From Pseudochelatococcus contaminans (GTDB lineage Bacteria; Pseudomonadota; Alphaproteobacteria; Rhizobiales; Beijerinckiaceae): a DNA stretch of 64,000 nucleotides. This document shows, piece by piece, positions 15,913 through 33,136 of the stretch. The position numbers and the translations under genes are program-made. Numbering within the stretch: position 1 is the stretch's first letter; each line of letters starts with the position of its first letter. Below the pieces are notes generated by a model, which was not told the DNA's origin, searched no databases, and was given only the letters and a program-made list of their open reading frames with translations. The stretch is taken from contig NZ_JACICC010000002.1 of the NCBI RefSeq assembly GCF_014195635.1, positions 434,001 through 498,000 on the forward strand, read 5' to 3'.

Positions 15913-17856
15913 ATGGCAGTGAACGGCGATCTCTTCTCCAGCTACGCGCAGGCATTCGAAGCGCGGCGTCAGGTCGAAATGTCCCTTGAGGAATACCTGA
16001 AAGGCTGTCGCAGCGACCCGATGTTCTACGCCAGCGCGCCCGAGCGTCTGCTGGCGGCAATCGGGGAGCCTGAAATCGTCGACACGTCGCGCGATCCGCG
16101 CCTCGGTCGCATCTTCATGAACCGGACGATCCGCAGATATCCGAGTTTTTCCGAGTTCCACGGCATGGAAGAGACGATCGAGCGCATCGTCTCGTTCTTC
16201 CGTCATGCGGCCCAAGGGTTGGAGGAGCGCAAGCAGATCCTCTACCTGCTCGGGCCGGTTGGCGGCGGCAAGTCGTCGCTTGCCGAGCGCATCAAGGCGC
16301 TGATGGAGGTGCATCCCATCTACGCGCTCAAGGCCGGCGATGAAGTCAGCCCGGTATTCGAAAGCCCGCTGGGGCTGTTCGACCAGTCATTGGCGCCGCG
16401 CCTCGAAGAAGACTACGGCATTCCGGCCCGCCGCCTTACCGGGCTGATCAGCCCGTGGTGCCGCAAGCGGCTGGAAGAGTTCGGCGGCGATATCTCGCGT
16501 TTCCGGGTCGTGAAAATCATGCCCTCGCGGCTGCGGCAGGAGGCCATCGCCAAGACCGAACCCGGCGACGAGAACAATCAGGACATCTCGGCACTGGTCG
16601 GCAAGGTGGATATCCGCCAGCTTGAACACCTGTCCCAGAACGATCCGGACGCCTACAGCTACTCCGGCGGGCTCAACCGCGCCAATCAGGGCCTGCTCGA
16701 ATTCGTCGAGATGTTCAAGGCGCCGATCAAGATGCTGCACCCGTTGCTGACTGCAACGCAGGAAGGCAACTATGTCGGCACCGAGAATATCGGCGCGATC
16801 CCGTTCACGGGTATCATTCTGGCACACTCCAACGAATCCGAGTGGCAGAACTTCAAGAACAACAAGAACAACGAAGCCTTTATCGACCGTATCTACGTCA
16901 TCAAGGTGCCCTACAGCCTGCGCGTGCATGAAGAGCAGAAGATCTACGAGAAGCTCGTGCGCGGGTCCGAATTGTCCGAGGCCGCTTGTGCTCCGGGCAC
17001 GCTGGAGCTGCTGGCGCGTTTCTCGGTGCTGTCGCGGCTGCGCGAACACGAGAACTCCAACCTGTTCTCGAAAATGCGCGTCTATGACGGCGAAAACCTG
17101 CGCGAGGTCGATCCGCGCGCCCGCAGCCTTCAGGAATACAAGGATGCGGCGGGTGTTGACGAGGGCATGGACGGCATCTCCACCCGCTTCGCCTTCAAGG
17201 CGCTGGCGGCAGCCTTCAACCATGACACCACGGAAGTAGCGGCCGACCCGGTCCACCTGATGTATGTGCTGGAACACGCCATCCGTCAGGAGCAGCTCCC
17301 GGCGGAGACCGAGAAGCGTTATCTGGGCTTCATCAAGGGCGATCTTGCGCCCCGTTACGCCGAATTCATCGGCCACGAAATCCAGAAAGCCTATCTCGAA
17401 TCCTACCACGACTACGGCCAGAACCTGTTCGACCGCTACGTCGCCTATGCGGATGCGTGGATCGAGGATCAGGACTTCAAAGATCCGGACACGGGGCAGT
17501 TGCTCGACCGCGAGTTGATCAACCAGGAACTGACGAAGATCGAAAAGCCGGCAGGCATCGCCAACCCCAAGGATTTCCGTAACGAGGTGGTCAAGTTTGC
17601 CCTGCGCACGCGCGCGCATCATGGCGGGGCCAACCCGTCGTGGACCAGCTACGAGAAAATCCGCGAGGTGATCGAGCGGCGCATGTTCAGCCAGGTGGAG
17701 GATCTGCTGCCTGTCATCAGTTTCGGCTCGAAAAAAGATGGCGAGACGGAAAAGAAGCACGACGAGTTCGTGAGCCGGATGACGGAACGTGGCTACACGG
17801 AACGGCAGGTGCGCCGTCTGGTTGAGTGGTACATGCGCGTCAAGCAGGCGGGGTGA
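15913..17856 (+). CDS. prkA: PrkA/YeaG serine protein kinase (AAA+ type)
   Basis: 647 aa. A PrkA-family protein with an N-terminal AAA+ module (Walker A GPVGGGKSS at residues 114-122) and the C-terminal PrkA kinase domain. It reads YPSFSEFHGMEETIERIVSFFRHAAQGLEERKQILYLLGP near the N-terminus, as in E. coli YeaG. Known homologues are starvation-induced cytoplasmic proteins; both kinase and Lon-like protease activities have been proposed. ATG 15913 is chosen over TTG 15907 because GAGG lies at the correct distance. yeaH begins 8 bp downstream and spoVR after that, forming a three-gene operon. Confidence 0.95.
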   Translation: MAVNGDLFSSYAQAFEARRQVEMSLEEYLKGCRSDPMFYASAPERLLAAIGEPEIVDTSRDPRLGRIFMNRTIRRYPSFSEFHGMEETIERIVSFFRHAAQGLEERKQILYLLGPVGGGKSSLAERIKALMEVHPIYALKAGDEVSPVFESPLGLFDQSLAPRLEEDYGIPARRLTGLISPWCRKRLEEFGGDISRFRVVKIMPSRLRQEAIAKTEPGDENNQDISALVGKVDIRQLEHLSQNDPDAYSYSGGLNRANQGLLEFVEMFKAPIKMLHPLLTATQEGNYVGTENIGAIPFTGIILAHSNESEWQNFKNNKNNEAFIDRIYVIKVPYSLRVHEEQKIYEKLVRGSELSEAACAPGTLELLARFSVLSRLREHENSNLFSKMRVYDGENLREVDPRARSLQEYKDAAGVDEGMDGISTRFAFKALAAAFNHDTTEVAADPVHLMYVLEHAIRQEQLPAETEKRYLGFIKGDLAPRYAEFIGHEIQKAYLESYHDYGQNLFDRYVAYADAWIEDQDFKDPDTGQLLDRELINQELTKIEKPAGIANPKDFRNEVVKFALRTRAHHGGANPSWTSYEKIREVIERRMFSQVEDLLPVISFGSKKDGETEKKHDEFVSRMTERGYTERQVRRLVEWYMRVKQAG

Positions 17857-17863
17857 TGCTTCT

Positions 17864-19168
17864 GTGCATATAATCGATCGACGCCTCAATCCGGGAGGCA
17901 GGAGTTTCACCAATCGCCAGCGGTTCATCCGGCGGGCGAAAAATCTGGTGCAACGAGCGGTTCGAGAGGATTTCAAGAACCGCAGCATCAAGGATCTGGA
18001 TCAGGGCGGGGAGATCAGCATCACCCGCGAAGGGGTGCACGAACCCGCCCTGCGTCGCGGCTCCGCCGGCGGGCGGCGTGATCACGTTCTGCCGGGCAAC
18101 AAGGAGTTCATCGAGGGCGACAGCATCCGCAGGCCGCCACCGGGCAGCGGCGGTGCGGGCGGCCCCGACGCGGGGACCGGCAGCGGCGAGGATGCTTTCC
18201 GCTTCCTGCTGACGCGCGAGGAATATCTCGACCTGTTCCTCGACGATCTCGAACTCCCCAACCTCGCCAAGCGCAAGCTCACCGGCGCGGAAGCCAAGGA
18301 ACTGCACCGCGCCGGTTACTCCACCACCGGCTCGCCTTCGGCGCTGTCGGTGACGCGCACGATGCGAAACGCCCTGTCGCGGCGGATCGCGCTGCGCCGT
18401 CCGGGGCGCGATACGATCCGCGCGCTGGAGGAGGAAATCGCCACCCTCACAGAAAGCGGCGCGGACCCGACGCGCCTCGATGCTCTGCGCATCGAGCACG
18501 AGCGCCTCGTGACCCGCAGCAAGCGGATTGCGTGGATCGACCCTATCGACCTGCGCTACCGCCGCTATGACCAGACGCCGCGCCCGGTGGCGCAGGCGGT
18601 GATGTTCTGCCTCATGGATGTCTCCGGCTCCATGAACGAGCAGATGAAGGATCTCGCCAAGCGTTTCTATGCGCTGCTGCACATCTTCCTGCGGCGCAGT
18701 TATCGCCATGTCGATGTGGTGTTCATCCGCCACACCGACCATGCCGAGGAAGTGGATGAGGATACGTTCTTTCACAGCCCGGAGACGGGGGGCACCATCG
18801 TATCCACGGCGCTGGACGAGATGCTGCGCGTCGTGCGGGAACGCTACAGCCCGGACGACTGGAACATCTACGTGGCGCAGGCGTCGGACGGCGACAACAT
18901 CGGCACCGACAGCGGCCGGGTGGCCAAGCTGATCACCGAGGATATCCTGCCCATCAGCCAGTATTACGCTTATCTGGAGGTTGGGCGCGGCGACGGCCAG
19001 TTGCCGCTCGGCTCGGTGGCGCGCACCACGGACCTGTGGCGCACATACGAGATGCACGTGCCGTCAGGCGGTCATTTCGTCATGCGCAAGGTGTGGCACC
19101 GGCGCGAGATCTACCCGGTCTTCCGCGAACTGTTCCGGCGCGACGGCGCCGATGAAGGAGGCCCCTGA
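17864..19168 (+). CDS. yeaH: YeaH/DUF444 family protein with VWA-like domain
   Basis: 434 aa. It starts at GTG 17864, giving VHIIDRRLNPGG...NRQRFIRRAK, which aligns with the YeaH N-terminus. Residues 96-121 form a Gly/Pro-rich linker. The C-terminal half is a von Willebrand A-like fold with the metal-site motif DVSGSM (Asp at residue 252) and a later DGDNIGTDSG. Homologues are co-transcribed with the PrkA kinase and may act with it in starvation responses; the biochemical role is unknown. Its stop overlaps the spoVR start (TGATG). Confidence 0.93.
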   Translation: MHIIDRRLNPGGRSFTNRQRFIRRAKNLVQRAVREDFKNRSIKDLDQGGEISITREGVHEPALRRGSAGGRRDHVLPGNKEFIEGDSIRRPPPGSGGAGGPDAGTGSGEDAFRFLLTREEYLDLFLDDLELPNLAKRKLTGAEAKELHRAGYSTTGSPSALSVTRTMRNALSRRIALRRPGRDTIRALEEEIATLTESGADPTRLDALRIEHERLVTRSKRIAWIDPIDLRYRRYDQTPRPVAQAVMFCLMDVSGSMNEQMKDLAKRFYALLHIFLRRSYRHVDVVFIRHTDHAEEVDEDTFFHSPETGGTIVSTALDEMLRVVRERYSPDDWNIYVAQASDGDNIGTDSGRVAKLITEDILPISQYYAYLEVGRGDGQLPLGSVARTTDLWRTYEMHVPSGGHFVMRKVWHRREIYPVFRELFRRDGADEGGP

Positions 19169-20739
19169 TGGTCGCCATCGCAGAAAAACATCCTTTGCTC
19201 TTTACCGGCTCGGACTGGGACTTCGACACCATCCGCCGCATCCACGAAACGGTCGGCGAAGTCGCCGGCAGGCAACTGGGGCTCGACACCTACCCCAACC
19301 AGATCGAGGTCATCACCGCCGAGCAGATGCTCGACGCCTACGCCTCCACCGGCATGCCGCAACTTTACCGGCACTGGTCGTTCGGCAAGCAGTTCGCACA
19401 CCACGAGATGGTCTATCGCAAGGGCATGAGCGCGCTGGCCTACGAGATCGTCATCAACTCCAACCCCTGCATCAGCTACATCATGGAGGAAAACACCGCC
19501 ATGATGCAGACGCTGGTGATCGCGCACGCCGCGTTCGGCCATAACCACTTTTTCAAGAACAACTATCTCTTCCGCCAGTGGACGGATGCCGAAGGCATTC
19601 TCGATTACCTCGCCTTCGCCCGCAAATACATCGCCCAATGCGAGGAGCGGCATGGCCTGTCAGCGGTGGAGCGGCTGCTGGACATCGCCCATTCCCTGCA
19701 AAGCCACGGCGTGCATCGCTATCCGCGCCGTTCGCGGCTCGACCTCAAGGTGGAGCGGCAGCGCGAGGCCGAGCGGCACGCGTATCGGGAGCAGGTCTAC
19801 AACGACCTGTGGCGCACGGTGCCGGGGCAGCCATCGCAGACGGCGGGGCGGTCGTCCGCAGAGCGGCGGCGGGCGATGTTGGGACTGCCGGAGGAAAACA
19901 TCCTCTACTTCCTGGAAAAGACCGCGCCGCTCCTACAGCCTTGGCAGCGTGAGGTGCTGCGCATCGTCCGGCATGTGGCGCAGTATTTCTATCCGCAGTC
20001 ACAGACCAAGATCATGAACGAGGGCTGCGCCACATGGTGCCATTATCGCATCATGACGCATCTGCACGAACAGGGCTCCATCGACGACGGCGCCTTTCTG
20101 GAATTCCTGCAGTCACATGCCAACGTCATCATGCAGCCAACTTACGACAAGCCCTATTATAACGGGCTCAACCCCTACGCCATCGGCTTCGCCATGATGC
20201 AGGACATCGTGCGCATCTGCGAATCACCGGAGGATGAAGACCGCGCGTGGTTCCCGGACATCGCCGGCAAGGGCGATGCCGTGACGGTGCTGAAACATGT
20301 CTGGGAGAATTATCGCGACGAGAGTTTCCTGTCGCAGTTCCTCAGCCCGCGGTTGATCCGCGAATGGCGGCTGTTCCATCTGGAAGACGATTCGACCAAG
20401 CCGACGCTGCGGGTGGATGCCATTCACGACGAGCGGGGCTATCGCCGCATTCGCAATGCGCTGTCACGCCAATATGACATCGGCTGGCAGCAGGCCGACA
20501 TCCAGATCATCGACGTGGATCTGGACGGCGACCGGCAGCTGACGCTTCAGCATAACACCGTCAACGGCATTCTGCTGTACGAGAAGGACATCGATCAGGT
20601 GTTGCAGAACCTTGCCGCCATCTGGGGTTACAAGGTGGTGCTGCGCGAGGTCGATCCGGCAACCGGAAGGCTCATCAAGGAGCATATCGCCCGCACGCCG
20701 CAGCGCAACGGACCGAACGGCGAGGATCAGCTCTTCTGA
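19168..20739 (+). CDS. SpoVR/YcgB family protein
   Basis: 523 aa, the full family length. Recognisable stretches include LDTYPNQIEVITAEQMLDAY, NPCISYIMEENTAMMQTLVIAHA, GHNHFFKNNYLF and MNEGCATWCHYRIM, the last with conserved His and Cys residues. The family includes B. subtilis SpoVR (spore cortex) and E. coli YcgB (stationary phase); no activity is established. The start overlaps the yeaH stop by one base and has AAGGAGG upstream, so it is coupled to prkA-yeaH. The conserved linkage suggests the kinase, the VWA protein and SpoVR act on one process. Confidence 0.94.
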   Translation: MVAIAEKHPLLFTGSDWDFDTIRRIHETVGEVAGRQLGLDTYPNQIEVITAEQMLDAYASTGMPQLYRHWSFGKQFAHHEMVYRKGMSALAYEIVINSNPCISYIMEENTAMMQTLVIAHAAFGHNHFFKNNYLFRQWTDAEGILDYLAFARKYIAQCEERHGLSAVERLLDIAHSLQSHGVHRYPRRSRLDLKVERQREAERHAYREQVYNDLWRTVPGQPSQTAGRSSAERRRAMLGLPEENILYFLEKTAPLLQPWQREVLRIVRHVAQYFYPQSQTKIMNEGCATWCHYRIMTHLHEQGSIDDGAFLEFLQSHANVIMQPTYDKPYYNGLNPYAIGFAMMQDIVRICESPEDEDRAWFPDIAGKGDAVTVLKHVWENYRDESFLSQFLSPRLIREWRLFHLEDDSTKPTLRVDAIHDERGYRRIRNALSRQYDIGWQQADIQIIDVDLDGDRQLTLQHNTVNGILLYEKDIDQVLQNLAAIWGYKVVLREVDPATGRLIKEHIARTPQRNGPNGEDQLF

Positions 20740-20776
20740 CGCGCCGGCACTGACCCCGGCGCATCTCCAGACCCGA

Positions 20777-20806
20777 AACATGTCCTGACCCGGATCAGGA
20801 CATGTT
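20777..20806. terminator. bidirectional terminator between spoVR and phaC
   Basis: AACATGTCCTGA (20777-20788) and its exact complement (20795-20806) form a 12-bp stem with a 6-base loop, between two convergent genes. T-runs are weak, so termination may be partial. Confidence 0.65.
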
Positions 20807-20814
20807 CCTGCCGG

Positions 20815-22629
20815 TCAGCGTTGCAGCACGTAGCTGCCAGGTGCGTCTACCAGCGGCGGGAAACCCTTGTCGGCAGCGCCGGGTTCACGCGCGGGCACGT
20901 GCTCCGGCGTGGATTTGTCCGCAAGCCACTGCGCCCACGCCAGCCACCACGAGCCGTCGCGCCGCTCGGCGACCTCCGCCCACTCGCCGGGGCTCAGGCA
21001 CACATCGTCCGTGCGCTTGAGGGCAATGCGGAACCGCCGGCGGGGACGTCCCGGCTCGCTGACAATGCCGGCGTTATGGCCGCCGCTGGTCAGCACGAAG
21101 CTAACATCCGTATCCGTCAGATAATGGATCTTGTAGACGGAACGCCACGGCGCGACGTGATCGCGCTCGGTGCCGACCACGAACAACGGCGCGCGGATGT
21201 TCTGAAGCGCCGCCGGACGGCCATCGACCAGGAAACGCCCGGCTGCCAGCTCGTTGTCAAGGTAAAGCCGCTTCAGATATTCGGCATGCATCTTGTACGG
21301 CATGCGGGTGGAATCGGCGTTCCACGCCATCAGATCGATCAGCGGCGAGCGCTCGCCCATCAGGTAGTCATGCACGAGCCGCGACCAGATGAGATCGTTG
21401 GAGCGCAAGAGCTGGAAAGCCGCCGCCATCTGTTCCGAATCGAGATAGCCGCGGTTCCACATCATGCTTTCCAGATAATCGACCTGGCTGTGATCGATGA
21501 AAAGCGCCAGTTCGCCGGGCTCGGAAAAATCCGTCTGCGCCGCCAGCAGCGTCACCGAGGCCAGACGGTCGTCACCGGCGCGGGCCATGGCGGCAGCGGC
21601 GATGGACAGCAGCGTGCCGCCCAGACAATAGCCGGTAGCGTGAATCTTCTGGTCCGGAACGATGGCATTGATGGCCGCGAGCGCATCGACGATGCCGGAC
21701 TGGCGGTAATCGTCGAGGGTTAGTGCGCGGTCTTTGGCATCGGGATTGCGCCACGAGACGCAGAACACCGTATGCCCCTGCTCCACCAGATAGCGGATGA
21801 GCGAGTTATGCGGCGACAGATCCAGAATGTAATACTTCATGATCCACGCCGGCACGATCAACACCGGCTCCGCGAACACCGTCTCGGTGGCAGGCGAATA
21901 CTGGATCAGCTCGATGAGGTGATTGCGGTAAACCACCTTGCCCTTGGTCGCGGCGACATCACGGCCGACGACGAAGTTTTCCGCCCCCACGGGGGGCTGA
22001 TGCGTCAACTGCCGGGTAGCGTCTTCCAGCCAGTTGGCGAAGCCCTGCCGGATGTTCTCGCCGCCGGTGTCCACCGTTCTGGCGATGACTTCCGGGTTGG
22101 TGAACGGGTTATTCGATGGCGCGAACACATCCAGCACCTGCCGGGCGATGAAGGACACCACCTCTTCGTGATGCGGCGTCACGCCCGGCACGTCGCTGGT
22201 CACGCCCTGCCACCATTGCTGATATGCCAGGAAGGATTGCGACCAGATCGAATATGGCATCGCCTGCCATGCCTGATCGCCGAAACGGCGGTCGCCCGGC
22301 TGCGGCTCGATACACGGCGGCGTCTTGGGGTCCACGGCCAATGCGGCGAGATATTTCAGCAGCTTGCCGTTTTCGCGCACGGCCTCGCAAGCCAGCTCAG
22401 CCTGCTTGCCGGGTGCATAGGCCAGATGGACGGCCCAGTCGAAGAAGGCCAGCGACAGCGCCGCCGGCGATATGCCACCCGTGAACTGCGCACCGAGCGC
22501 CTTGCGGATGCGATCGGCGGCACGGAACGCCTCGTCGCCCGAGGCTGGCTCGACTGTGGGCGCAAGAGACGCTTGCTGCCGGTCCGTCACCGGCGAGAAT
22601 GGGACAGCGGTTTTCACTTCGACGGGCAT
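20815..22629 (-). CDS. phaC: class I poly(3-hydroxyalkanoate) synthase
   Basis: 604 aa. It polymerises 3-hydroxyacyl-CoA into PHA at the granule surface. It has the PhaC N-terminal domain (YLAYQQWW-type region, residues 100-215) and an alpha/beta hydrolase core. The lipase-like box GYCLGG gives catalytic Cys335; the catalytic Asp is in NADSTRMP and the His in GGHNAGI. Residues 1-35 are a low-complexity extension. ATG 22629 has GGGAGG upstream. No phaA, phaB, phaR or phasin is adjacent, so PHA genes are dispersed. The divergent neighbour is the DUF47/dikinase-like pair. Confidence 0.95.
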   Translation of the reverse strand: MPVEVKTAVPFSPVTDRQQASLAPTVEPASGDEAFRAADRIRKALGAQFTGGISPAALSLAFFDWAVHLAYAPGKQAELACEAVRENGKLLKYLAALAVDPKTPPCIEPQPGDRRFGDQAWQAMPYSIWSQSFLAYQQWWQGVTSDVPGVTPHHEEVVSFIARQVLDVFAPSNNPFTNPEVIARTVDTGGENIRQGFANWLEDATRQLTHQPPVGAENFVVGRDVAATKGKVVYRNHLIELIQYSPATETVFAEPVLIVPAWIMKYYILDLSPHNSLIRYLVEQGHTVFCVSWRNPDAKDRALTLDDYRQSGIVDALAAINAIVPDQKIHATGYCLGGTLLSIAAAAMARAGDDRLASVTLLAAQTDFSEPGELALFIDHSQVDYLESMMWNRGYLDSEQMAAAFQLLRSNDLIWSRLVHDYLMGERSPLIDLMAWNADSTRMPYKMHAEYLKRLYLDNELAAGRFLVDGRPAALQNIRAPLFVVGTERDHVAPWRSVYKIHYLTDTDVSFVLTSGGHNAGIVSEPGRPRRRFRIALKRTDDVCLSPGEWAEVAERRDGSWWLAWAQWLADKSTPEHVPAREPGAADKGFPPLVDAPGSYVLQR

Positions 22630-23035
22630 CTTGACCTCCCGGACCTGTTTTGTTGGCCAGCGTGCGATCCCCAGCCCGCCCGCGATCTTCGCGGCAATAT
22701 GGCCAAGCTGAATATCGACCGTCGTTGAGACTTGTCAATGCACGGTCGGTTTACGGCATCCAGTCTGGCGGCGATTTTCAATCCATGGCGACACCCGGTT
22801 CACGGATCACCGGCGACAGCATAGCGTGGCCGTTTGACACAAACCGTTCACAATCCGCCAATACTACTCCGGGCAGTCGTATGATGTGCTCACGCACACC
22901 GAAATGTGCACTTCCGGACGATTTCGACGTTTCATCAAGACGCGAGATCAGTCCAGTTTTTTCGATGTCGAGCGAATTTTTGTCGACCGGACGATTCCGT
23001 CTGCCAGGCAATCGCTCTGAGGAGGGGATCGGCAA
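22630..23035. other. divergent region phaC / DUF47 gene
   Basis: 406 bp with no gene. It must hold both promoters. Apart from short dyads near 22967-22987 I see no identifiable operator. Confidence 0.35.
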
Positions 23036-24997
23036 GTGGAAAAAGCGGATGTCGTCGCCGCCCTTGGGCAATCCAAGCTGCTGCTACCGGCGCGGATCAA
23101 GGCTGCGCTCGCGGCGAACGATCGGATCAAGTTCGGTCTGACGGCGCTTCAGGCCGCAGCATCCCATGCCGCCGACAGCACCGTGCCGCCGCTGGACCTG
23201 CGCCACGATTACGACGCGGCGCACATGGACGCGCCCTGGATGCTGACCATTCAGGACAAATCCTGGCGGGAGAACGGCACCCTCCACCTTGAGCATCTGT
23301 CCAGACTGGCGGAGCGTTTTTCGGACGATCTGGGCCAGATGGCCCGCCCGCTGGAAGACAGCAGCGATGAAACGCATCGCGCACAGATGGAGCGCGTCAC
23401 CCATTGGCGCCAATGGCTTGGCGAACTGAACGCGGGCACTCTCGACGCCGCGCAACTCGCCGCACTGACGAGCGGCCGCCGCGGCGCAGACGACACCTTT
23501 CACATTCTGGTCATGGATCTGCACAAAAGCCTGAACCACCTGTCGGCGCAGATGTCCGACGAGACGGTGGCCGGCGCGCATGTCTGGCAGATCGATGACA
23601 GCGACCGGCAGCGTATCGCGGCCTTCATGCGCGGCCTCAACCGCACCAAGAAGCTGAAGTTCGACCACCCCGGCCTCGACACCGCCGCCACGCGCGACGG
23701 CGACATTCTGCTGATCCAGAACGATATCGGCACCAACGACGTACACGTGCTCGTGGTCAAGGTGGAGGGGCTGGTCATCACCCTCACCTATTCCGATCTG
23801 CACGAACGCCGCTTTGCGTTCTTCCGCGATCTGCTGGCCGGTATCGGCGCGCAATGGTCGGATATCGGCACGCGCCGCAACGCAGGTCTCAATTTCGGCG
23901 ACGATTACATCGTCGGCAACGCCCGTTTCGTCTGCGCGGACACGCGTGAACTCGATACGGCGCTGGACAAGCTGGGCGCACGCATCGTCTTCCTGATCGA
24001 CTGGAACCGCGCCCGCAAACGCCTCAACCGGCTGGTGTCGAAGTCTCTGGCGGTGGATGTTCTGACGCAGGCGGCGCAGCGCGAAAGCGGGCATATGGGC
24101 TGGCTGCTGGCCGGGGCCGAGGAGCTTGTCTTCGACGCCATGGAAGCACTGTCGCCCGATCATTTCCACATGGGCGACCAGCTCGACACCGTGCTGGGGG
24201 AGGATGAGGCGAGCGAGTTCCTCGTGGACACACTGTCAATCGCCGCCGAGGCCATGCTGGCGGGCCAGACGAAAAGCCTCATCGCCGATCAGGTGCGCCT
24301 GCTGCTGTCGCGCCACGTCAACCGGCACAGGGATGAGTTCTCGCTGCTGGCCGAGCACGCCGCCTACTGTCATGCGCTGGCGGAAGGCGTCCGCGATGCC
24401 CTCGCCTATGGCCATGAAACCGACCTTGCAGTGGCCGAGAAGCTCGCTGAACGCGCCAAGGCGTGGGAGCGCAAGGCGGACCATCTCGTCATCCGCTTGC
24501 GCGAACAGGCGGAGGTGAACCCGCGCCGCCTGCCTTTCCTGCGCCTCATCGAATGCGCGGACGACGCCGCCGATGCGCTTGAGGAAGCCACTTTCCTGCT
24601 CTCGCTCATCGCGGAAAACCATCATCAGGGCTGGAACGACGACCTGCGGGCCGTATTGCGCCGGCTGGCCGACAAGGTGCTGGAAGCAGCGCAGGACCAC
24701 GTGAAGGCGATCGCGGTGGCGCGCACGCTGACCGAGGCAAGTCTGGCGCAGGACCATGACGAATTTCTCGGCGTATGCTGGCGCGTCGTCAATGCCGAGC
24801 GGCTTTGCGACGCCCTGACGCGGGATACGCGGCGGCTGTTCGCGCGCCATGTGTCGGACGCCGCCTCGCTGACGCTGGGCACAGACTTCGCCGGCGCGCT
24901 GGAAGCAACCACAGATGCCCTGCTGAAAACCGGCTACGCGATGCGCGCCATCGTGTTCACCCGGGTTGGCGCGGAGAGGGAAGGAAGGCAGTCGTGA
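23036..24997 (+). CDS. large protein with C-terminal PhoU-like (DUF47) domain, coupled to a dikinase-like protein
   Basis: 653 aa, cytoplasmic, with no signal peptide or membrane helix. The C-terminal 200 residues (about 430-640) are helical with a PhoU/DUF47 pattern (AEKLAERAKAWERKADHLVIRLRE..., LRLIECADDAADALEEATFLLSLIAE). The first 430 residues are not a family I recognise; they contain an apparent alpha/beta part (GDILLIQNDIGTNDVHVLVVKVEGLVITLTYSDLHERRFAFF). The start is GTG 23036 after GAGGAGGGG. The stop overlaps the next start as GTGA, so the two products are made together. DUF47 proteins usually accompany phosphate transporters, but none is here. The pairing suggests a partner, substrate or regulator of the truncated dikinase (inference). 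Confidence 0.8.
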   Translation: MEKADVVAALGQSKLLLPARIKAALAANDRIKFGLTALQAAASHAADSTVPPLDLRHDYDAAHMDAPWMLTIQDKSWRENGTLHLEHLSRLAERFSDDLGQMARPLEDSSDETHRAQMERVTHWRQWLGELNAGTLDAAQLAALTSGRRGADDTFHILVMDLHKSLNHLSAQMSDETVAGAHVWQIDDSDRQRIAAFMRGLNRTKKLKFDHPGLDTAATRDGDILLIQNDIGTNDVHVLVVKVEGLVITLTYSDLHERRFAFFRDLLAGIGAQWSDIGTRRNAGLNFGDDYIVGNARFVCADTRELDTALDKLGARIVFLIDWNRARKRLNRLVSKSLAVDVLTQAAQRESGHMGWLLAGAEELVFDAMEALSPDHFHMGDQLDTVLGEDEASEFLVDTLSIAAEAMLAGQTKSLIADQVRLLLSRHVNRHRDEFSLLAEHAAYCHALAEGVRDALAYGHETDLAVAEKLAERAKAWERKADHLVIRLREQAEVNPRRLPFLRLIECADDAADALEEATFLLSLIAENHHQGWNDDLRAVLRRLADKVLEAAQDHVKAIAVARTLTEASLAQDHDEFLGVCWRVVNAERLCDALTRDTRRLFARHVSDAASLTLGTDFAGALEATTDALLKTGYAMRAIVFTRVGAEREGRQS

Positions 24998-26580
24998 CGG
25001 ATACCGCACGGATCTACCGCGTCGGCGGCGGTGAGGCGCTGGAACCCGGCGCATCGCCGGCAGCGCTCGGTTTCAAGGCTTACAATCTCGCGCGGATGGC
25101 CGCGCTGGGTCTGGACGTGCCGCCCGCATTCGTGCTCGGCACGGGCTATTGCGCCGATCCCGGATCGGTAGCGGTGGCGACCTGGCTGGACGCTCTGTCG
25201 TGGCTGGAAAAGGCGACCGGCCTGCGCTTCGGCGACTCCCGCCGCCCGCTGCTGCTCTCCGTGCGCTCGGGCGCGCCGGTTTCCATGCCCGGCATGATGG
25301 AGACGCTGCTCAACATCGGCCTGACGGATGAGACGCTGCCCGGCCTTATTCGTGTCACCGGGCATCCCCGCCTTGCATGGGATGCTTACCGCAGGCTGAT
25401 CGCCGGTTATGGCGAGGTGGTGGCCGGCATCGACGCCGCCGCTTTCGAGGAAGATCTCGACGCCGTCCGCCAGGGCGAGGATGAACGCGCGCTGGATTTC
25501 GCGGCGCTGCGCGACCTTGCCCAGCGCCATCTGGCGACCTACGCCCGCCTCGCGGACGCGCCTTTTCCGCAAAGCACGCAGGCCCAGCTTCAGGCGGCCA
25601 TTCAGGCGGTGCTTCGCTCATGGTCCAGCGACAAGGCTATTGCCTATCGCAAGATGCGCGACATCGACGATGCCATTGGCACCGCCGTCACCGTGCAGCG
25701 GATGGTATTCGGCAATGCCGGCGGCGTTTCGGGCGCGGGTGTCGGCTTCACCCGCAACCCTAGCGACGGCGATCCTGCCCCGTGGGTGGATTTCCTGTTC
25801 AATGCGCAGGGTGAGGATGTGGTCAGCGGCCGCCGCAGCGCGCAGGGCCATGAGCGGCTTGCTGCCGTCGCCCCGGCTGTCTGGGACGAACTTGTCACCG
25901 CGACCAAGGTGCTTGAGCGCGAATTCGGTGACATGCAGGACTTTGAATTCACCGTCGAGAACGGCGAACTGTTCCTACTGCAAACCCGTGACGGCAAGCG
26001 CACACCGCAGGCAGCCGCCCGCATCGCGCTGGATCTGGCCGAGGAAGGGCTGATCGACACCGATACCGCCCGCGAGCGCACGCGCGACCTCGACGCTGCC
26101 GCACTCACCACGCATGTTATCGTGGCGCAGGACGGCGCCGCGCCGACGGTTCTCGGCCACGGCGCAACCGCCGCAACCGGCGTTGCCAGCGGCGCGGCCG
26201 CGCTAGACGGCGCACAGGTCGAAGCGTTCACCGCCGAGGGAAAGCGCGTCATTCTGGTGCGGCGCAACGCCGAAACCCACGATGTCTCGCTGCTCGACGC
26301 CGCTGACGGCCTTCTCACCTGCCACGGCGCGCGCACGTCTCATGCCGCCGTGGTGGCGCGGCAATTGGGCAAGGTTTGCCTTGTGGGCTGCGACGCACTG
26401 CGGATCGATGAGCAGGCGGGGCGCATCAGCTTCGGCGAAACACACCTCGAACCGGGGGCGCTCATCACGCTGGACGGCAACACCGGCACGGTCTACCTCG
26501 GCGCATTGAAAACCGAGGACAACGTGCCGAAAGAGTTGCTGGCACGTCTGGACAAGCTGCACGGACGCGGGGCAGCCTGA
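24994..26580 (+). CDS. pyruvate-phosphate-dikinase-like protein lacking the C-terminal PEP/pyruvate barrel
   Basis: 528 aa against about 880 for PPDK. The N-terminal ATP-grasp part is very PPDK-like: KAYNLARMAALGLDVPPAF, SVRSGAPVSMPGMMETLLNIGL, GVGFTRNPSDGDP, NAQGEDVVSG and GDMQDFEFTVENGELFLLQTR. The swivelling domain keeps the phospho-accepting His at residue 450 in GARTSHAAVVARQLGK. The protein then stops with TGA; no TIM barrel follows in any frame before the converging gene at 26602. So it can plausibly autophosphorylate from ATP but must hand the phosphate to something other than a built-in pyruvate site. GTG start at 24994 overlaps the upstream stop. Related two-domain designs with a different acceptor domain include rifampin phosphotransferase. 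Confidence 0.9.
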   Translation: MTDTARIYRVGGGEALEPGASPAALGFKAYNLARMAALGLDVPPAFVLGTGYCADPGSVAVATWLDALSWLEKATGLRFGDSRRPLLLSVRSGAPVSMPGMMETLLNIGLTDETLPGLIRVTGHPRLAWDAYRRLIAGYGEVVAGIDAAAFEEDLDAVRQGEDERALDFAALRDLAQRHLATYARLADAPFPQSTQAQLQAAIQAVLRSWSSDKAIAYRKMRDIDDAIGTAVTVQRMVFGNAGGVSGAGVGFTRNPSDGDPAPWVDFLFNAQGEDVVSGRRSAQGHERLAAVAPAVWDELVTATKVLEREFGDMQDFEFTVENGELFLLQTRDGKRTPQAAARIALDLAEEGLIDTDTARERTRDLDAAALTTHVIVAQDGAAPTVLGHGATAATGVASGAAALDGAQVEAFTAEGKRVILVRRNAETHDVSLLDAADGLLTCHGARTSHAAVVARQLGKVCLVGCDALRIDEQAGRISFGETHLEPGALITLDGNTGTVYLGALKTEDNVPKELLARLDKLHGRGAA

Positions 26581-26601
26581 ACAGTCGCAACCCGCGCGCC
26601 A

Positions 26602-27591
26602 TCAGTGTCCAGCGCTGTCAGCGTCGGCGGTTTGGACGAGGTATGCGGGATCGGCGCTGTTGCGCATGAACTGCTCGATGCGGCCTGTCTCGCGGCGGAT
26701 CGTCAGCGTCTGATCCCACCGTGAGCGGTCGATGTTCTTGCAGGTGTCCGCCACCTCGAAGAACTCCTTGTAGTCCTTCGCCGTGACCACCACCGGCGAC
26801 AGCCCCTGCCGCACCAACGCATAGCTGGCGATCAGGGTAGCCGTGCGGCGGTTGCCCTCAATGTAGAGCTGCGGCGAACTGGTGATCAGCAGGAAAATGC
26901 CAGCCGCCACCGCCTCCGGCGTGCTGGTGCGATGACGCTGGAGCCATTCGATACGCTCGCCAATTCCTCCCTTGGAGTCATCGTAAAAGCGCTTTTCAGT
27001 CAGTTCGATGTGATTACGGAACTGCTCCCTCCGCTCAGGCGTGGTGCCGCAAAGAACGAGGTGATTCAGCTCAAGCCAATGATGCGAGTTGCCATACGTG
27101 AACAGATCCACGTCATCCCGCAGCAGATCGTTGACGTAGGCATAGCCGCTCATCATCCGCCGAACGATGTCGTCGGACATGGGCTCCTTGTCCTCGAAGT
27201 CCTCCGCATCATTGGATGCCGAGGCAAGCCTCAGGCCCGTCAGCGCATTCTCGATTTCCTGCAGGTTCATTAAAAACCGCACACTCCTGGCCGTCTGCTT
27301 GCCGGCCCCGGTGGCGCCGTTCGGATTATAAGCAGAGGACATAAGATTAGGTGCGCTGTTCATCATGTCAAGAACGCCATTCAACATGATGTAGAAGCCT
27401 TTGACGTTAAGACCGTCCAAGCTGTTCTGCAAAATCTTTTTATTAAAATTAATATAATCTTCGAAATAATTGGAACCAAAATTGAAGAACATACGCGAGG
27501 TGTTCCTCGCGGATGCTGCGCGGTTTTTCTGGTTGTCATCCGGCGAAGCGCGCGGGGGAAATTTGTTCGTCATGGGAAGATGAAAACTCAT
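26602..27591 (-). CDS. Fic/Fido-like protein with degenerate catalytic motif
   Basis: 329 aa. The helical core resembles a Fic fold: a helix ending DIVRRMMSGYAYVNDLL, then WLELNHLVLCGT, and a motif region QLYIEGNRRTATLIASYAL (residues 241-259). The Fic consensus HPFxxGNGRxxR is recognisable, but the catalytic His is Gln241, Phe is Tyr and the second Gly is Arg, so AMP transfer by the usual mechanism looks impossible. No inhibitory (S/T)xxxE(G/N) helix is evident. The start is uncertain: 27591, 27573 and 27492 all lack a clear Shine-Dalgarno. No antitoxin partner is adjacent. It converges with the dikinase-like gene 21 bp away. Confidence 0.65.
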   Translation of the reverse strand: MSFHLPMTNKFPPRASPDDNQKNRAASARNTSRMFFNFGSNYFEDYINFNKKILQNSLDGLNVKGFYIMLNGVLDMMNSAPNLMSSAYNPNGATGAGKQTARSVRFLMNLQEIENALTGLRLASASNDAEDFEDKEPMSDDIVRRMMSGYAYVNDLLRDDVDLFTYGNSHHWLELNHLVLCGTTPERREQFRNHIELTEKRFYDDSKGGIGERIEWLQRHRTSTPEAVAAGIFLLITSSPQLYIEGNRRTATLIASYALVRQGLSPVVVTAKDYKEFFEVADTCKNIDRSRWDQTLTIRRETGRIEQFMRNSADPAYLVQTADADSAGH

Positions 27592-27980
27592 CGGTCACAC
27601 GGAGATATCGGAACGCTTGTTTTGATGGAGCCACGACAGGCGCTCTATATTTTATACTTTACCACAACTTGCGATCAAGCAGATGGATCACCTTGAACGC
27701 AAATGGCTCTCATCGTCGGGACGCATTAAAAACAAAAGCATGCCAATAAGCAATGTAGGTTGGCTCGGATATCTCGTCACCGACCGCTGACTCGGCATAC
27801 AATGAATGAACCGTGCAAATGAAAGAACCGGAACGGCCTCATCATCCGGATGACGCCGTCCCGATCCATGATAACAATATACTCTGGCAGGAAGGGCGCG
27901 AACGCGTCCTCACCTGAAAGCGTTTGTCTACAGCCACCTGTCTTCAGTTCGACGACAGTTCAGCCTGAACGCAAACGGCC
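27592..27980. other. intergenic region between pstS2 and the Fic-like gene
   Basis: 389 bp with no coding ORF and lower GC than the neighbours in its first half. It holds a palindrome (27833-27860, annotated separately) that could end the pst transcript. It must also carry the promoter of the leftward Fic-like gene. Confidence 0.4.
27833..27860 (-). terminator. bulged stem-loop downstream of the pst operon
   Basis: A 12-bp palindrome TCATCCGGATGA (27843-27854) flanked by ACGGC (27833-27837) and GCCGT (27856-27860). In the leftward direction it is followed by a T/C-rich stretch. It is a weak terminator candidate for pstSCAB-pstS2. Confidence 0.4.
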
Positions 27981-29003
27981 CTAGCGCAATTCGGCCAGAA
28001 TGGCCTTCGCCCGTTCGGCAACCGGAGCCGGAAGCGGGATGTAACCCAGCTTGTCGGACAGCGCCTGACCATCCGCAAGACCCCAGCCGAAGAAGCGCTT
28101 CAGACCGTCGGTAATGGCGGCATCAGCATTCTCACGGCGCAGCAACACCCAGCTGTAGGTGACGATGGGATAAGCCGTCTCACCTTCAGGATTGGGGATC
28201 GACTGGCGACCATCCGCCGGCATTGCATCCACGGTGGAAGCAAGTGCCGCCGCACCCGATGCAGCATCCGCACGCACGAACTGCCCCGACTTGTTCTCCA
28301 CCAGCGCCGTGCGCAGGTTGAGACGAGCGGCGAACGAATACTCGACATAGCCGATCGAGTATTCCGCGATGGCGATACGCCCGGCCACGCCTTCGTTACC
28401 GGCCACGAGCTGGGCGGTCTTCGGCCACACGATGGTAGTGCCAACTTCCTTCCAGTCGCTGCTGACAGCGGCAAGATGGCTGGTGAGCGAGAACGTCGTT
28501 CCGCTCGAGTCCCTGCGGGCGACGAGCGCAATGTCCTTCGCCGGCAGGTTGGCGCCGGGATTGGCCGCCTGGATGACAGGATCGTTCCAGGCCTTGATGC
28601 GGCCGCTCAGGATGCCCGCAACCGATTCCTGGCTGAGACGCAGTTCCTTGTCCAGACCAGGAATGTTGTACGCGAACACGATCATGCCCGCTGTGGTGGG
28701 AACATGCAGAACACCGCCGGCGATGGCCTCAACCTGTTTGTCCGACAGCGGCCGTTCCGTTGCGCCGAAAGCGACCGAACCCTGGGAAAACTGGCGGATA
28801 CCCTCGCCACTGCCCACCGCGCTGTACGTGACGGTGACGTCGGTGTTCGCCCGGTTGAACTCGCTGATCCACTGTTCGTAGAGGTTGGCGGGGAAAGTCG
28901 CCCCCGCCCCCTTGAGCTCGACGGCCCCCGCCTCGCTGGCGAAGCAAACGACCGCCGCAAGCGCTGCCTTCTGCAACGCTCCTCTCAGACCTGCGCGCCC
29001 CAT
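27981..29003 (-). CDS. second phosphate-binding PstS-like periplasmic protein
   Basis: 340 aa. It has a signal peptide (MGRAGLRGALQKAALAAVVCFASEAGAV) and the PstS fold: LKGAGATFPANLYEQWISEFN, YSAVGSGEGIRQF, FGATERPLS, ARRDSSGTTFSLTSHL, GYVEYSF. These are the loops that bind phosphate (TFP, SGEG, RRDSSGT). ATG 29003 has GAGGAGGG upstream and starts 10 bp after the pstB stop, so it is the last gene of the operon, where phoU normally sits. It is clearly diverged from the first PstS at 31909. A different affinity or substrate is possible. Confidence 0.9.
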   Translation of the reverse strand: MGRAGLRGALQKAALAAVVCFASEAGAVELKGAGATFPANLYEQWISEFNRANTDVTVTYSAVGSGEGIRQFSQGSVAFGATERPLSDKQVEAIAGGVLHVPTTAGMIVFAYNIPGLDKELRLSQESVAGILSGRIKAWNDPVIQAANPGANLPAKDIALVARRDSSGTTFSLTSHLAAVSSDWKEVGTTIVWPKTAQLVAGNEGVAGRIAIAEYSIGYVEYSFAARLNLRTALVENKSGQFVRADAASGAAALASTVDAMPADGRQSIPNPEGETAYPIVTYSWVLLRRENADAAITDGLKRFFGWGLADGQALSDKLGYIPLPAPVAERAKAILAELR

Positions 29004-29013
29004 GGCACCCTCC

Positions 29014-29835
29014 TCAGCTGAACTGACCGGATACGTATTCGCGCGTGAGCTGTTCGCGGGGGTTGCCAAAGACTTCGGCCGTCGGCCCCTTCTCCACGAG
29101 ATAACCCGTGCGTCCGCCCTTGGAAACATCGACGGAGAAGAACGCCGTGATGTCTGCCACGCGCTGTGCCTGCTGCATGTTATGCGTCACGATGGCGACG
29201 CTGTAGTCGTTCTTGAGTTCCAGCATCAGCTCTTCCACGATGCGAGTCGCGATCGGGTCGAGCGCCGAGCACGGTTCGTCCATCAGCAGCACGGTCGGCT
29301 CGATGGCGATGGCGCGGGCGATGCAAAGACGCTGCTGCTGGCCGCCCGAAAGGGCCAGACCGTTCTGCTTCAGCTTGTCCTTCACTTCGTTCCAGAGGCC
29401 GGCGCGGCGCAGGGAACGTTCCACCTGCTCGTGCATGTTGCCCTTGAAACGGTTGAGGCGCAGGCCGAACGCCACGTTCTCGAAGATGCTCATCGAGAAC
29501 GGGTTAGGCTGCTGGAACACCATGCCGATGTGGCGGCGCACCGACACGGGGTCGATGTCCTTGGCGTAGATGTCCTGACCCATGAAGTCGACCCGGCCTT
29601 CGAGGCGGAAGATCGGGATCAGGTCGTTCATGCGGTTGAGGCTGCGCAGCACGGTGGACTTGCCGCAACCCGACGGGCCGATGAAGCCGGTGATCTTGCC
29701 CTTTTCGACACCAATCACGGCATCGCGCACAGCAAGGAAGTCGCCGTAGAAGATCTTGTCGATCGACGCGGAGATTGCGTATTGCGGGTTGACAGCAGCC
29801 GCGGTCGTGGCAGGGGTGGAGAGATTGACAGACAT
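29014..29835 (-). CDS. pstB: phosphate ABC transporter ATP-binding protein
   Basis: 273 aa, standard length. It has Walker [11 protein letters not shown]-loop [11 protein letters not shown], signature [16 protein letters not shown], Walker [17 protein letters not shown] and the H-loop VTHNMQQA. It energises phosphate import through PstC-PstA. The first 15 residues are a short Ser/Thr/Ala extension. It starts 21 bp after the pstA stop. Confidence 0.97.
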
Positions 29836-29856
29836 TGGCCTACTCCGACAGCAGCG

Positions 29857-30759
29857 TTAGACTTTCCGGCTTCCGAAGAGCCGGCTGAGGATATTGAAAA
29901 CGAGCACGATCAGCACCAGCACGAGCGATGCAGACCAGGCAAGCTGGATCTGGTTCGGGAAGGGCATACCCGAGAAGTTGTAGATCAGGATCGACAACGA
30001 CGCGGTCGGCTCGACCAGGCTTTCCAGCCAGAAGCTGCTGAACAGCGCGGTGAACAACAGCGGCGCGGATTCACCGGCAGCCGAAGCGATGCCGAGCATG
30101 ACGCCCGTCAGAATGCCGGGCAGCGCCGTCGGCAGAACAACCTTCCACACCGTCTGCGTGGAGGTGCAGCCAATGCCGGTCGCCGCGTCCTTCATTCGTT
30201 GCGGGACCATACGGATAGCCTGCTCCGAGGTCAACATAACCGTTGACAGCATGCCCATGGCCAGCGCGACACCACCTGCGAGCGCCGAGAAGGTTCCCAT
30301 CGCCTGCACGAGAAGGCCGAAGATGAAGATACCGACGAGGATCGAAGGGAAGCCGGTGAGCACCTTGGCAACGAAGCGTATGCCGGCAGACAGCTTGCTG
30401 TCGGGAGCGATCGCGCCCAGATAGACGCCGCCCATGACGCCGACCGGGATGGCGATCAGCGCGCCGATACCCACCATCACCAGCGTACCGATGATGGCGT
30501 TACCGAAACCGCCGCCCTGCATGAAGCCGGCCGGAGGCAACTCGGTGAACAGGTCGAGGCTCAGCCGAGCGCCACCCTGGGAGATCAGCATATAGAGCAC
30601 GGAGAACAGCGGGATCGCGGCGATGATGGCCAGGATCCAGACGAATGCGGTCAGCAGGAAGCTGCGCAGGTTGCGCGACTCGGTGAAGGAGCGGCGCATG
30701 CTCGGCGCCGTCCGGGCACCGATCGCGGCGCGTGAAATATCATCAGCAGTGATGGACAT
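29857..30759 (-). CDS. pstA: phosphate ABC transporter permease PstA
   Basis: 300 aa with six predicted membrane helices. It has typical PstA stretches such as GGFGNAIIGTLVMVGIGALIAIPVGVMGGVYL and the EAA-like loop (EQAIRMVPQRMKDAATGIGC). It forms the transmembrane channel with PstC. ATG 30759 has GAGGGGG upstream. The start is 11 bp after the pstC stop, within the operon. Confidence 0.96.
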   Translation of the reverse strand: MSITADDISRAAIGARTAPSMRRSFTESRNLRSFLLTAFVWILAIIAAIPLFSVLYMLISQGGARLSLDLFTELPPAGFMQGGGFGNAIIGTLVMVGIGALIAIPVGVMGGVYLGAIAPDSKLSAGIRFVAKVLTGFPSILVGIFIFGLLVQAMGTFSALAGGVALAMGMLSTVMLTSEQAIRMVPQRMKDAATGIGCTSTQTVWKVVLPTALPGILTGVMLGIASAAGESAPLLFTALFSSFWLESLVEPTASLSILIYNFSGMPFPNQIQLAWSASLVLVLIVLVFNILSRLFGSRKV

Positions 30760-30770
30760 TCTAGGCCCCC

Positions 30771-31739
30771 TCAGGTCGTTTGCTGCTTGGCCGCGAACGA
30801 CATGATGATCGTACCCGCGACGTTGACGATGAAGGTGATGAACAACAGGGCCAGCGCGGCGAACATCAGCGCTTCACGCTCAAGCTGGCCGGCCTCCGGG
30901 AAGGTCGAGGCGAGCAGCGACGCAAGGGTGTTGGCCGGGGAGAAAAGCGACAGGCTGATCTGGTTGGCGTTACCGATGATCATGGCCAGCGCCATGGTTT
31001 CGCCCAGCGCGCGGCCGAAGCCCAGAACCAGCGAGGCGAAGATGCCGTTCGCTGCAGTCGGGACCATGACCTTGAGAATGGCTTCCCACCGGGTGGTGCC
31101 CATGCCGTAAGCCGCTTCCTTCACCTTGTAGGGAATGAGGCGGAAGGCGTCCTGCGAGATCGCGGCGACCGTCGGCAGCACCATGATGGCGAGCACGATG
31201 ACGGCCGGCGCCATGCCGGGACCGCCGAAGGAGGTGCCGAACAGCGGGATGAAGCTGAAATGCTCATGCAGCCAGTTCGCCAGCGGGCGGATGGCCGGAA
31301 TGACGACGAAGATACCCCACAGACCGTAGACGACGCTGGGGATGGCCGCCAGCATTTCCACGATGGTACGGAAAACCTGCGCCAGCGCCGGGGGCAGAAA
31401 GTCCTGCGTGAGGAAGATGGCGATGGAGACGCCGAAGAAACCGGCGATGATCAGAGCGAGAATGGAGCTGTAGAGCGTGCCCCAGATTTCGGCCAGAATG
31501 CCGAACTCACCGCGACCGGGAGCCCAGACGGCGTTGGTCAGGAAGCCCAGCCCGTACTTGGAAATAGCGGGGGCGGCCTCGCGGCCGATAATGATCAAAA
31601 TCGCGAGAAGCAGCAGCATCATGGCGAGGCCACAGGCAAGGGCAAGACCCCTGAAGCCGCGATCGCTCGCGTATTCTGCTCCGGAAGGATTTCGAGAAAT
31701 GGACTTTTCGGACAGTGATGAAAGCTTGAGCTCAGCCAT
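30771..31739 (-). CDS. pstC: phosphate ABC transporter permease PstC
   Basis: 322 aa. A membrane protein with PstC signatures (GLGFLTNAVWAPGRGEFGILAEIWGTLYSS, AAIPSVVYGLWGIFVVIP, PTVAAISQDAFRLIPYKVKEAAYGMGTTRWEAI). It is the partner of PstA in high-affinity phosphate import. It is separated from pstS by 169 bp containing a stem-loop, so its expression is probably set lower than pstS. Confidence 0.96.
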   Translation of the reverse strand: MAELKLSSLSEKSISRNPSGAEYASDRGFRGLALACGLAMMLLLLAILIIIGREAAPAISKYGLGFLTNAVWAPGRGEFGILAEIWGTLYSSILALIIAGFFGVSIAIFLTQDFLPPALAQVFRTIVEMLAAIPSVVYGLWGIFVVIPAIRPLANWLHEHFSFIPLFGTSFGGPGMAPAVIVLAIMVLPTVAAISQDAFRLIPYKVKEAAYGMGTTRWEAILKVMVPTAANGIFASLVLGFGRALGETMALAMIIGNANQISLSLFSPANTLASLLASTFPEAGQLEREALMFAALALLFITFIVNVAGTIIMSFAAKQQTT

Positions 31740-31860
31740 CTTGCGTCACCTTATGTGATGAACCATCGGCCACGAACAACCCGCAAAGGACAACCCGCCG
31801 TGCGGAAGCCGCACCGTCGCGGATCCGGCCGATCGACGCGTGACGCCGCCGGCACAGTTA

Positions 31861-31885
31861 CTCCCGGACACAAAAGGCCCGGGAG
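31861..31885 (-). terminator. stem-loop between pstS and pstC
   Basis: CTCCCGG (31861-31867) pairs with CCGGGAG (31879-31885). It lies just after the pstS stop. Such structures after binding-protein genes usually protect the upstream mRNA or partly terminate, giving more binding protein than permease. No long T-run is present. Confidence 0.55.
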
Positions 31886-31908
31886 CTGTTCGTCATGCCG
31901 CCATCCAC

Positions 31909-32940: not shown

Positions 32941-33136
32941 GGTCAACTCTCCAGGCTAGTTGCGGTGGATTATTGGACACGAGTTCGCGACAGATTGATT
33001 ACAACCGCTGGTAAAAATTCGTGGAAAAATTTTTGTTCTTTTTGCATCAGACGCTTAACGTTATAAAAATTTTGGCGTCTAATATATTTAGATATTACGA
33101 AACAAACACCGCATCCATCGCATTTCCATTTCAAAT

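Follow-up and report, generated by a model that had tools for sequence, protein, structure and literature searches.

A conserved proteobacterial gene pair of a barrel-less pyruvate, phosphate dikinase relative and a PhoU/DUF47-like protein: a possible two-protein phosphotransfer module

The stretch of Pseudochelatococcus contaminans DNA analysed here (64,000 nucleotides of contig NZ_JACICC010000002.1, positions 434,001 to 498,000; hereafter the window) carries two overlapping genes on the forward strand. The first, at 23036-24997, encodes a protein of 653 amino acids (aa), P1; the second, at 24994-26580, encodes one of 528 aa, P2. P2 is a relative of pyruvate, phosphate dikinase (PPDK) that lacks the C-terminal barrel, and P1 is its constant neighbour. 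Both open reading frames (ORFs), their lengths and the GTGA shared by the P1 stop and the P2 start (24994..24997) had been called in an earlier reading of the sequence (the original prediction), and all hold on the sequence. A ribosome-binding-like stretch, GAGGAGG, lies upstream of the GTG start of P1. Among the homologous loci described below, ATGA or GTGA is found at the P1 stop in eight of nine loci inspected for sequence. The exact 4-bp overlap was scored at 43/87 loci with the start codon chosen mechanically, which is a low estimate: L014-L016 have ATGA at the P1 stop, yet were scored +26.

Two Pfam families match P2. PPDK_N (PF01326) identifies the ATP-grasp nucleotide-binding domain (residues ~23-345; 25060..26028), and PF00391 (61.2 bits) the swivelling, or mobile, phospho-histidine domain (residues 417-498; 26242..26487). 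The expected phospho-carrier, His450, lies in the motif GARTSHAAVV (codon 26341..26343), as had been read from the sequence. P2 has these two domains in common with PPDK (TIGR01828; PDB 1kbl, 1dik, 9pzl) and differs from it in missing the C-terminal phosphoenolpyruvate (PEP)/pyruvate barrel. TIGR01828 matches P2 at positions 16-510 of 865, with 494.5 bits against a cut-off of 843.45, and in a nine-sequence P2 profile, positions 20-522 align with solved structures of PPDK. Past about residue 510 of P2, profile matches cease. Hence, the claim that P2 is barrel-less stands. A frameshift or sequencing error hiding a barrel downstream is ruled out by the conserved length of P2, since complete homologues are all 497-564 aa long (80/80); a match in two frameshift-like pieces was seen only in L041 and L067. 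Catalytic residues are retained across the 81 alignment rows: K28 and R91 in 81, E318, Q330, R332 and R447 in 80, T448 and H450 in 79, and D316 in 78. The two exceptions at position 450 read G and X. The truncation of P2 is old and stable. Nor can P2 be a replacement for a missing PPDK, because a full-length PPDK is encoded on contig C1 of the window's genome. Judged by its retained domains and residues, P2 is likely to be an autokinase.

How constant is the association of P2 with P1? We searched for P1 in 289 genomes of the class and in a 398-genome sample of the phylum, both of which include the window's own genome and G042. P1 is present in 9/289 and 4/398 genomes, respectively, and its distribution is patchy. 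P2 lies directly after P1 in all 8 other P1-positive class genomes. Furthermore, a search of the 289 genomes with P2 gave matches of at least 820 bits in exactly the same nine; the next best match, of 578 bits, lies in a 916-aa frame, and the other matches listed lie in frames of at least 873 aa, the exception being a 591-aa frame at a contig end. Beyond P2, every P1-positive class genome contains one or more additional PPDK-type matches with E 1e-100 or better; among the matches listed, six of the nine genomes have theirs in a frame of at least 955 aa. One-per-species genome contigs yielded 346 P1 relatives; we retained the best 80, whose hosts include Mesorhizobium, Stella, Tistrella, Azotobacter, Halomonas, Thauera, Curvibacter, Hydrogenophaga, Rhodoferax and others. 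Together with 8 loci from the class genomes and 2 from the phylum sample, these make up 90 loci from at most 88 genomes (L046 is on the contig of L014, and L093 on that of L017).

P1 and P2 are adjacent and on the same strand at 87/90 loci, with a gap of -11 to +201 bp. At the remaining three (L050, L063 and L094), the contig ends no more than 180 bp past the end of P1 or inside P1. The two genes, which neighbourhood analysis might have found to be rarely linked, thus stand side by side at 87/87 testable loci, and the same 9/289 class genomes carry both. The pair spans the Alpha-, Beta- and Gammaproteobacteria. Two ORF clusters from this analysis were dropped as artefacts: in cluster 2, L050 was counted on the strength of an ORF antisense to P1, and cluster 5 apparently consists of ORFs antisense to P2. 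P1 and P2 are one inherited unit, and the comparison of genomes makes it very probable that they are also a functional pair. In the portions of the open-licence PubMed Central (PMC) literature that were accessible on PPDK with DUF47, PhoU, polyhydroxyalkanoate (PHA) or phosphotransacetylase/acetate kinase (Pta/AckA), we found no description of such a pair.

P1 (618-678 aa in complete homologues, n=89) ends in a PhoU/DUF47-like domain (residues 432-640; 24329..24955), as originally predicted: PF01865 (PhoU_div/DUF47) matches with 35.8 bits, above its cut-off of 24.4. The related TIGR00153 scores 23 bits, below its cut-off of 104.3. In a model of the whole protein (predicted local distance difference test, pLDDT, 87.5; predicted template-modelling score, pTM, 0.59), the C-terminus resembles PhoU-like structures (3l39: Z 24.0, root-mean-square deviation, rmsd, 3.0, 204 residues aligned). 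This part of P1 contains three ExxxD motifs (E478/D482, E588/D592 and E623/D627), the six residues of which are found in 90/90 rows; E(D)XXXD is the motif of PhoU according to the accessible text of PMC5686610. Fold and motifs are common to the last 210 residues of P1 and the PhoU_div/DUF47 proteins (PDB 3l39, 2olt). P1 differs from those proteins in the 430-residue unplaced region that precedes this domain and in having a relative of dikinases, instead of a transporter, as its constant neighbour.

It is striking that conservation of P1 is centred on residues 151-330 (23486..24025) rather than on the PhoU-like part. After thinning at 70% identity to 29 rows, the columns reaching 97% conservation number 43/180 for residues 151-330, as compared with 14/150 for residues 1-150, 8/100 for residues 331-430 and 12/215 for the PhoU-like part (431-645). 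The near-invariant residues are D153, H156, D161, H163, N167, D190, K208, H211, Q228, N229 and D230 in the first half of this core, and T233, D235, H237, D254, H256, R259, D322, W323, N324, R327 and K328 in the second, each retained in 88-90 of 90 rows. Such conservation leads us to propose the core as a putative acceptor or active site.

The original prediction could not place residues 1-430 of P1 (23036..24325), and they indeed lack a Pfam or NCBIfam family over cut-off. An AlphaFold2 model of this region, built from 67 sequences (pLDDT 89.1, pTM 0.71), consists of a helical part (~13-172), an alpha/beta core and a second helical part. Pfam families match at most 3 of the 67 members each, and the N-terminal profile has zero matches to PDB sequences at E up to 10. 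Foldseek with residues 1-430 gave a best E of 0.054 and query TM-scores of at most 0.18 among the 50 matches listed; the best VIA-align match (Z 9.2, rmsd 3.2, 105 residues) is unconvincing. As far as the model goes, the N-terminus of P1 has no family and no confident fold match, which does not imply a new fold. Several candidates were set aside. Arabinose_Iso_C (best E 0.0002) matched 3/67 members and was not used, and neither were weak fold matches to McsB (an arginine kinase), lombricine kinase and YbjN. VIA-align matches to the T4 MotA C-terminal domain (Z 9.2, 105-106 residues, 184-320) and to IpaD (Z 8.6, helical part 17-169 of P1) are reached by common arrangements, and nothing is drawn from them. 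A reading of the pair as a defence system was rejected; P1 and P2 have zero matches in PADLOC.

Two known kinds of system invite comparison. VadK (Rv1127c) of Mycobacterium tuberculosis is described in the accessible text of its report as a truncated PPDK that autophosphorylates on His422 with ATP and Mg and that interacts with enzymes of the methylcitrate cycle encoded by neighbouring genes (EMBO Rep 2026, PMC13400623). Like P2, as far as that text describes it, VadK has the ATP-grasp and phospho-histidine domains without a pyruvate/PEP domain, and it is an autokinase linked to short-chain acyl-CoA metabolism, traits that P2, with its conserved catalytic residues, would share. The partners differ: for VadK they are methylcitrate-cycle enzymes, according to the same text, whereas for P2 the partner is P1, adjacent wherever visible. 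The VadK paper, in its accessible main text, uses none of the words PhoU, DUF47 and acceptor. HpeHI, CreHI and PpsAB are, in the accessible part of another report, two-component dikinases that phosphorylate small molecules and need both proteins (J Biol Chem 2025, PMC12167813). They divide PPDK/PEP-synthase-type chemistry over two polypeptides, as we propose for P1-P2. However, in the split that the report describes, the ATP-grasp domain is alone on one protein, with substrate-binding and swivel domains on the other, whereas P2 holds ATP-grasp and swivel together and P1 consists of an unplaced core and a PhoU-like domain. P1-P2 appears to fit neither definition while being made from the same kind of parts.

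The phylogeny of P2 also sets it apart. In a quick tree, 81 P2 rows are split from 22 alphaproteobacterial PPDK rows by one branch with support 100; a long-branch warning applied to L018/L020 and L019, and a careful tree retains the same split. In the careful tree, to which short and long plasmid relatives were added, a branch with support 100/100 separates 25 P2 rows from all other rows. Six short actinobacterial PPDKs fall outside the P2 side of this tree, which is unrooted and does not have Rv1127c among its rows. Five of them group with two longer betaproteobacterial proteins, and the sixth with Nonomuraea. The short actinobacterial PPDKs are probably of the kind that includes VadK of M. 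tuberculosis, and we take the short PPDK family NF004531 to be of the VadK type. Against the NF004531 cut-off of 456 bits, the window's P2 scores 427.5, the L018 P2 440.6 and five short actinobacterial proteins 461.9-838.5, but the family is a weak discriminator, as the window's genome has a full-length PPDK that reaches 500.6. The tree suggests that several lineages have lost the barrel independently, and that P2 is not merely the proteobacterial version of VadK. Short PPDKs on two Rhodococcus plasmids (L144, L151) and a Mycobacterium branderi plasmid (L146) lie near AMP-binding, biotin-carboxylase or PEP-utilizing-enzyme genes, surroundings reminiscent of the catabolic clusters of two-component dikinases. 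On a Methylibium petroleiphilum plasmid, an 844-aa PPDK-like protein encoded amid bacterial-microcompartment genes (L147:3923-6756) groups with an 840-aa Paraburkholderia relative.

What process might the pair serve? In the window, the divergent neighbour of P1 is, as originally noted, the PHA synthase gene phaC (20815..22629, reverse strand; PF07167, PF12551). We counted such genes around all 90 loci by tblastn, using window or representative proteins as queries and confirming the families on examples. phaC is found at 20 loci, acetate kinase at 13, a MaoC-phosphotransacetylase fusion at 19, a FabI-like reductase at 14 and CYTH-CHAD at 11, the last three being raw counts without a background rate. 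A phaC fragment at the contig end of L042 fails the 30% coverage rule and is outside the 20, and neither L046 nor L093 has phaC. The 20/88 loci with phaC (L013-L100) compare with 0.49 expected in 1.06 Mb of flank, given a background of 32 in ~69.3 Mb of 15 host genomes; this Poisson figure assumes independent loci, although the loci are related, and it sets a tblastn count against a Pfam count in hand-picked genomes, several of them chosen for nearby phaC. The same 15 genomes have 20 acetate kinase matches. phaC is present in 15/15 of these hosts, and in 9/9 P1-positive class genomes versus 166/280 others (Fisher p 0.010).

The position of phaC varies. In the window, L032, L065 and five of seven Thauera loci, it lies immediately upstream in divergent orientation; in L061 it is upstream and co-oriented with the pair, and in L038, L098 and several Hydrogenophaga loci it lies downstream. 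We mapped context labels on a tree of 60 loci with flanks of at least 5 kb on both sides. The 30/90 rows dropped, which include 6 of the 20 phaC loci, were L106, L107, L046 and L093 by name, L063 and L094 for missing P2, and the rest for flanks below 5 kb. The phaC label (15/60 rows, the window included) needs 9 changes, 8 of them forced by starred branches; therefore, the juxtaposition with phaC is recurrent, with gains and losses indistinguishable. The phosphotransacetylase label (16/60 rows) needs 6 changes, 5 of them forced. In L139 (the locus counted as L107; 7770-15044, reverse strand), phosphoketolase, acetate kinase, P1 and P2 form one same-strand run. Beta-oxidation genes precede P1-P2 on a Methylocella plasmid; on an Aquabacterium plasmid, fabI lies 7.5 kb after the pair and none of the other context genes within 8 kb. 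Genes for a FabI-like reductase, the MaoC-phosphotransacetylase fusion, acetate kinase and PhaC cluster repeatedly in proteobacteria, arranged in several different gene orders (L038, L061, L071, L084, L098 and others). The original idea of a system in storage metabolism thus gains recurrent phaC, pta and ackA neighbours; the link itself we infer. We consider it somewhat probable that P1-P2 is tied to acetyl-CoA/PHA metabolism.

Since no barrel is hidden downstream of P2 and its linkage to P1 is constant, a role for P1 as acceptor or regulator of P2 is well motivated by the sequences. We propose that P1-P2 may be an obligate two-protein, PPDK-derived phosphotransfer module serving acetyl-CoA/PHA metabolism, a reading to which we give slightly less than an even chance. 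P2 would bind ATP in its ATP-grasp domain and load a phosphoryl group, by analogy with PPDK the beta one, onto His450. Barrel-less P2 would then swing its phospho-histidine domain to P1, the core of which (~151-330) would supply the acceptor site, either a conserved P1 histidine or a small bound substrate. The PhoU/DUF47-like C-terminus of P1 would bind metal, sense phosphate status and gate the transfer. The module would act on how acetyl-CoA/acetyl-phosphate is partitioned to and from PHA storage. Of this scheme, we infer the autophosphorylation of P2, its phosphotransfer to P1, the sensing and the metabolic target. Whether the core is an acceptor site is an even question, and the odds that the PhoU-like domain is a metal/phosphate sensor are similarly balanced.

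Several observations weigh against the proposed module. It is built from gene comparison, and P2 might have a different protein as its target, as has been suggested for VadK. Searches of PDB, Pfam, Foldseek and VIA-align connect the N-terminal domain of P1 with no known fold of a phosphoacceptor or kinase. The metabolic association recurs without being universal: phaC is absent from the available flanks, some of them short, of 68/88 loci. The expectation for phaC derives from 15 hand-picked host genomes, phaC is common in the class anyway (166/280 P1-negative genomes), and the figures for Pta (19/90) and CYTH-CHAD (11/90) have no background rate. Furthermore, the CYTH-CHAD label (5/60 rows) needs 5 changes on the tree, the same as when shuffled, and is scattered.

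The nearest alternative is that P2 is a VadK-like regulatory kinase, an ATP/energy-sensing autokinase that tunes metabolic enzymes such as Pta, AckA or PhaC, with P1 setting the level of phospho-P2 through its PhoU-like sensor instead of acting as acceptor. The behaviour of VadK in the accessible text of its report, autophosphorylation and interaction with the enzymes encoded beside it (PMC13400623), is a precedent, and the varied metabolic neighbours of the pair suit a regulator. However, the best-conserved part of P1 is the unplaced core and not the PhoU-like domain, which better suits a catalytic or acceptor site, and P2 lies outside the groups of the six short actinobacterial PPDKs and below the NF004531 cut-off that five of them pass, weak discriminator though it is. 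We regard this alternative as possible but rather unlikely. It is less likely still that P1-P2 is only a split small-molecule dikinase, non-regulatory, with one metabolite (for example an acyl/hydroxy acid or polyphosphate) bound by the P1 core and the PhoU-like part merely structural. The many near-invariant polar residues of the core, CYTH-CHAD near 11/90 loci (a raw count) and the two-polypeptide phosphorylation of small molecules by HpeHI, CreHI and PpsAB, as far as described in PMC12167813, would fit; but the split in those systems lies elsewhere, no single pathway adjoins the pair in all lines, and ExxxD motifs kept in 90/90 rows argue for a function of the PhoU-like part. We therefore consider this reading improbable. 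That P2 is a decaying PPDK with an unrelated neighbour is extremely unlikely: the barrel is lost and the nine P1-positive class genomes each have a further PPDK-type match, so that P2 is unneeded as a PPDK, but decay is contradicted by a length that stays stable, catalytic residues that are conserved and a pairing that is constant in Alpha-, Beta- and Gammaproteobacteria alike.

P1 could instead be a PhoU/DUF47-type controller of the phosphate transporters Pst or Pit, with P2 reporting ATP/pyrophosphate status. Two plasmid records name P1 'phosphate transport regulator' and 'DUF47 family protein'. Moreover, the original statement that no phosphate transporter is here was wrong. A pst cluster (27981-32946, reverse strand) begins 1.4 kb downstream of P2, with two pstS genes (31909-32946 and 27981-29129) flanking pstC (30771-31739), pstA (29857-30759) and pstB (29014-29835); pstA is assigned from sequence and position only, the others by family scan. 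No phoU was recognised in the cluster. However, across the 90 loci, at the thresholds used, a full pst set is near the pair only in L032 and a lone pstB only in L019, with none in the other 88, and so Pst linkage of the pair appears not to be general. In L019 (6925-8847, forward strand), a pfkB-type kinase gene and the lone pstB directly precede P1-P2, and no other pst genes were seen. It is unlikely that P1 is the missing phoU, as a two-domain PhoU frame is found on contig C7 of the window's genome. The interval between phaC and P1 (22630-23035) has no Pho box, a further point against phosphate control. We consider a phosphate-transport regulator improbable, if slightly less so than the purely small-molecule dikinase.

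What would the phosphotransfer module mean if it were real? Barrel-less PPDK-derived proteins have just been recognised as kinases in actinobacteria, where, in the accessible text on VadK (2026; PMC13400623), the acceptor is not identified. In P1-P2, a barrel-less PPDK comes with a constant partner encoded beside it, in proteobacterial hosts amenable to laboratory work (Azotobacter, Halomonas, Mesorhizobium, Tistrella), and the destination of the phosphate therefore becomes a direct two-protein question. P1 contributes a large, conserved, unnamed domain, and the surrounding genes point towards control of PHA, a storage polymer of industrial relevance. As a more speculative step, one we think doubtful, the P1 core could be a new phosphoryl-acceptor/transferase domain and the pair a third two-component dikinase architecture, coupling ATP/inorganic phosphate status to acetyl flow into PHA storage, possibly through a phosphorylated metabolite. 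Such an architecture would place ATP-grasp and swivel on P2, and the acceptor domain and a metal/phosphate-sensing PhoU-like module on P1.

Some further features of the window deserve mention. Just before phaC lie PrkA, DUF444 and SpoVR genes (15907-20739, forward strand); at the thresholds used, none of the 90 pair loci showed a relative of these three. A loose Pho-box consensus has 7 matches in the window versus 3.57 expected, including one inside P1 (23584) and one, with 3 mismatches, before the first pstS (33191-33208). No RNA elements reach the gathering score in 15000-33500. A 329-aa protein is encoded downstream of P2 (26602-27591, reverse strand); it matches nothing in Pfam at E up to 1e-5 or in NCBIfam at E up to 1e-20 and gives only one weak PADLOC row (E 0.0036), and its GNRRTATL stretch is presumably Fic-like. 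A relative 54% identical to this protein is found at the same place in Chelatococcus (L032).

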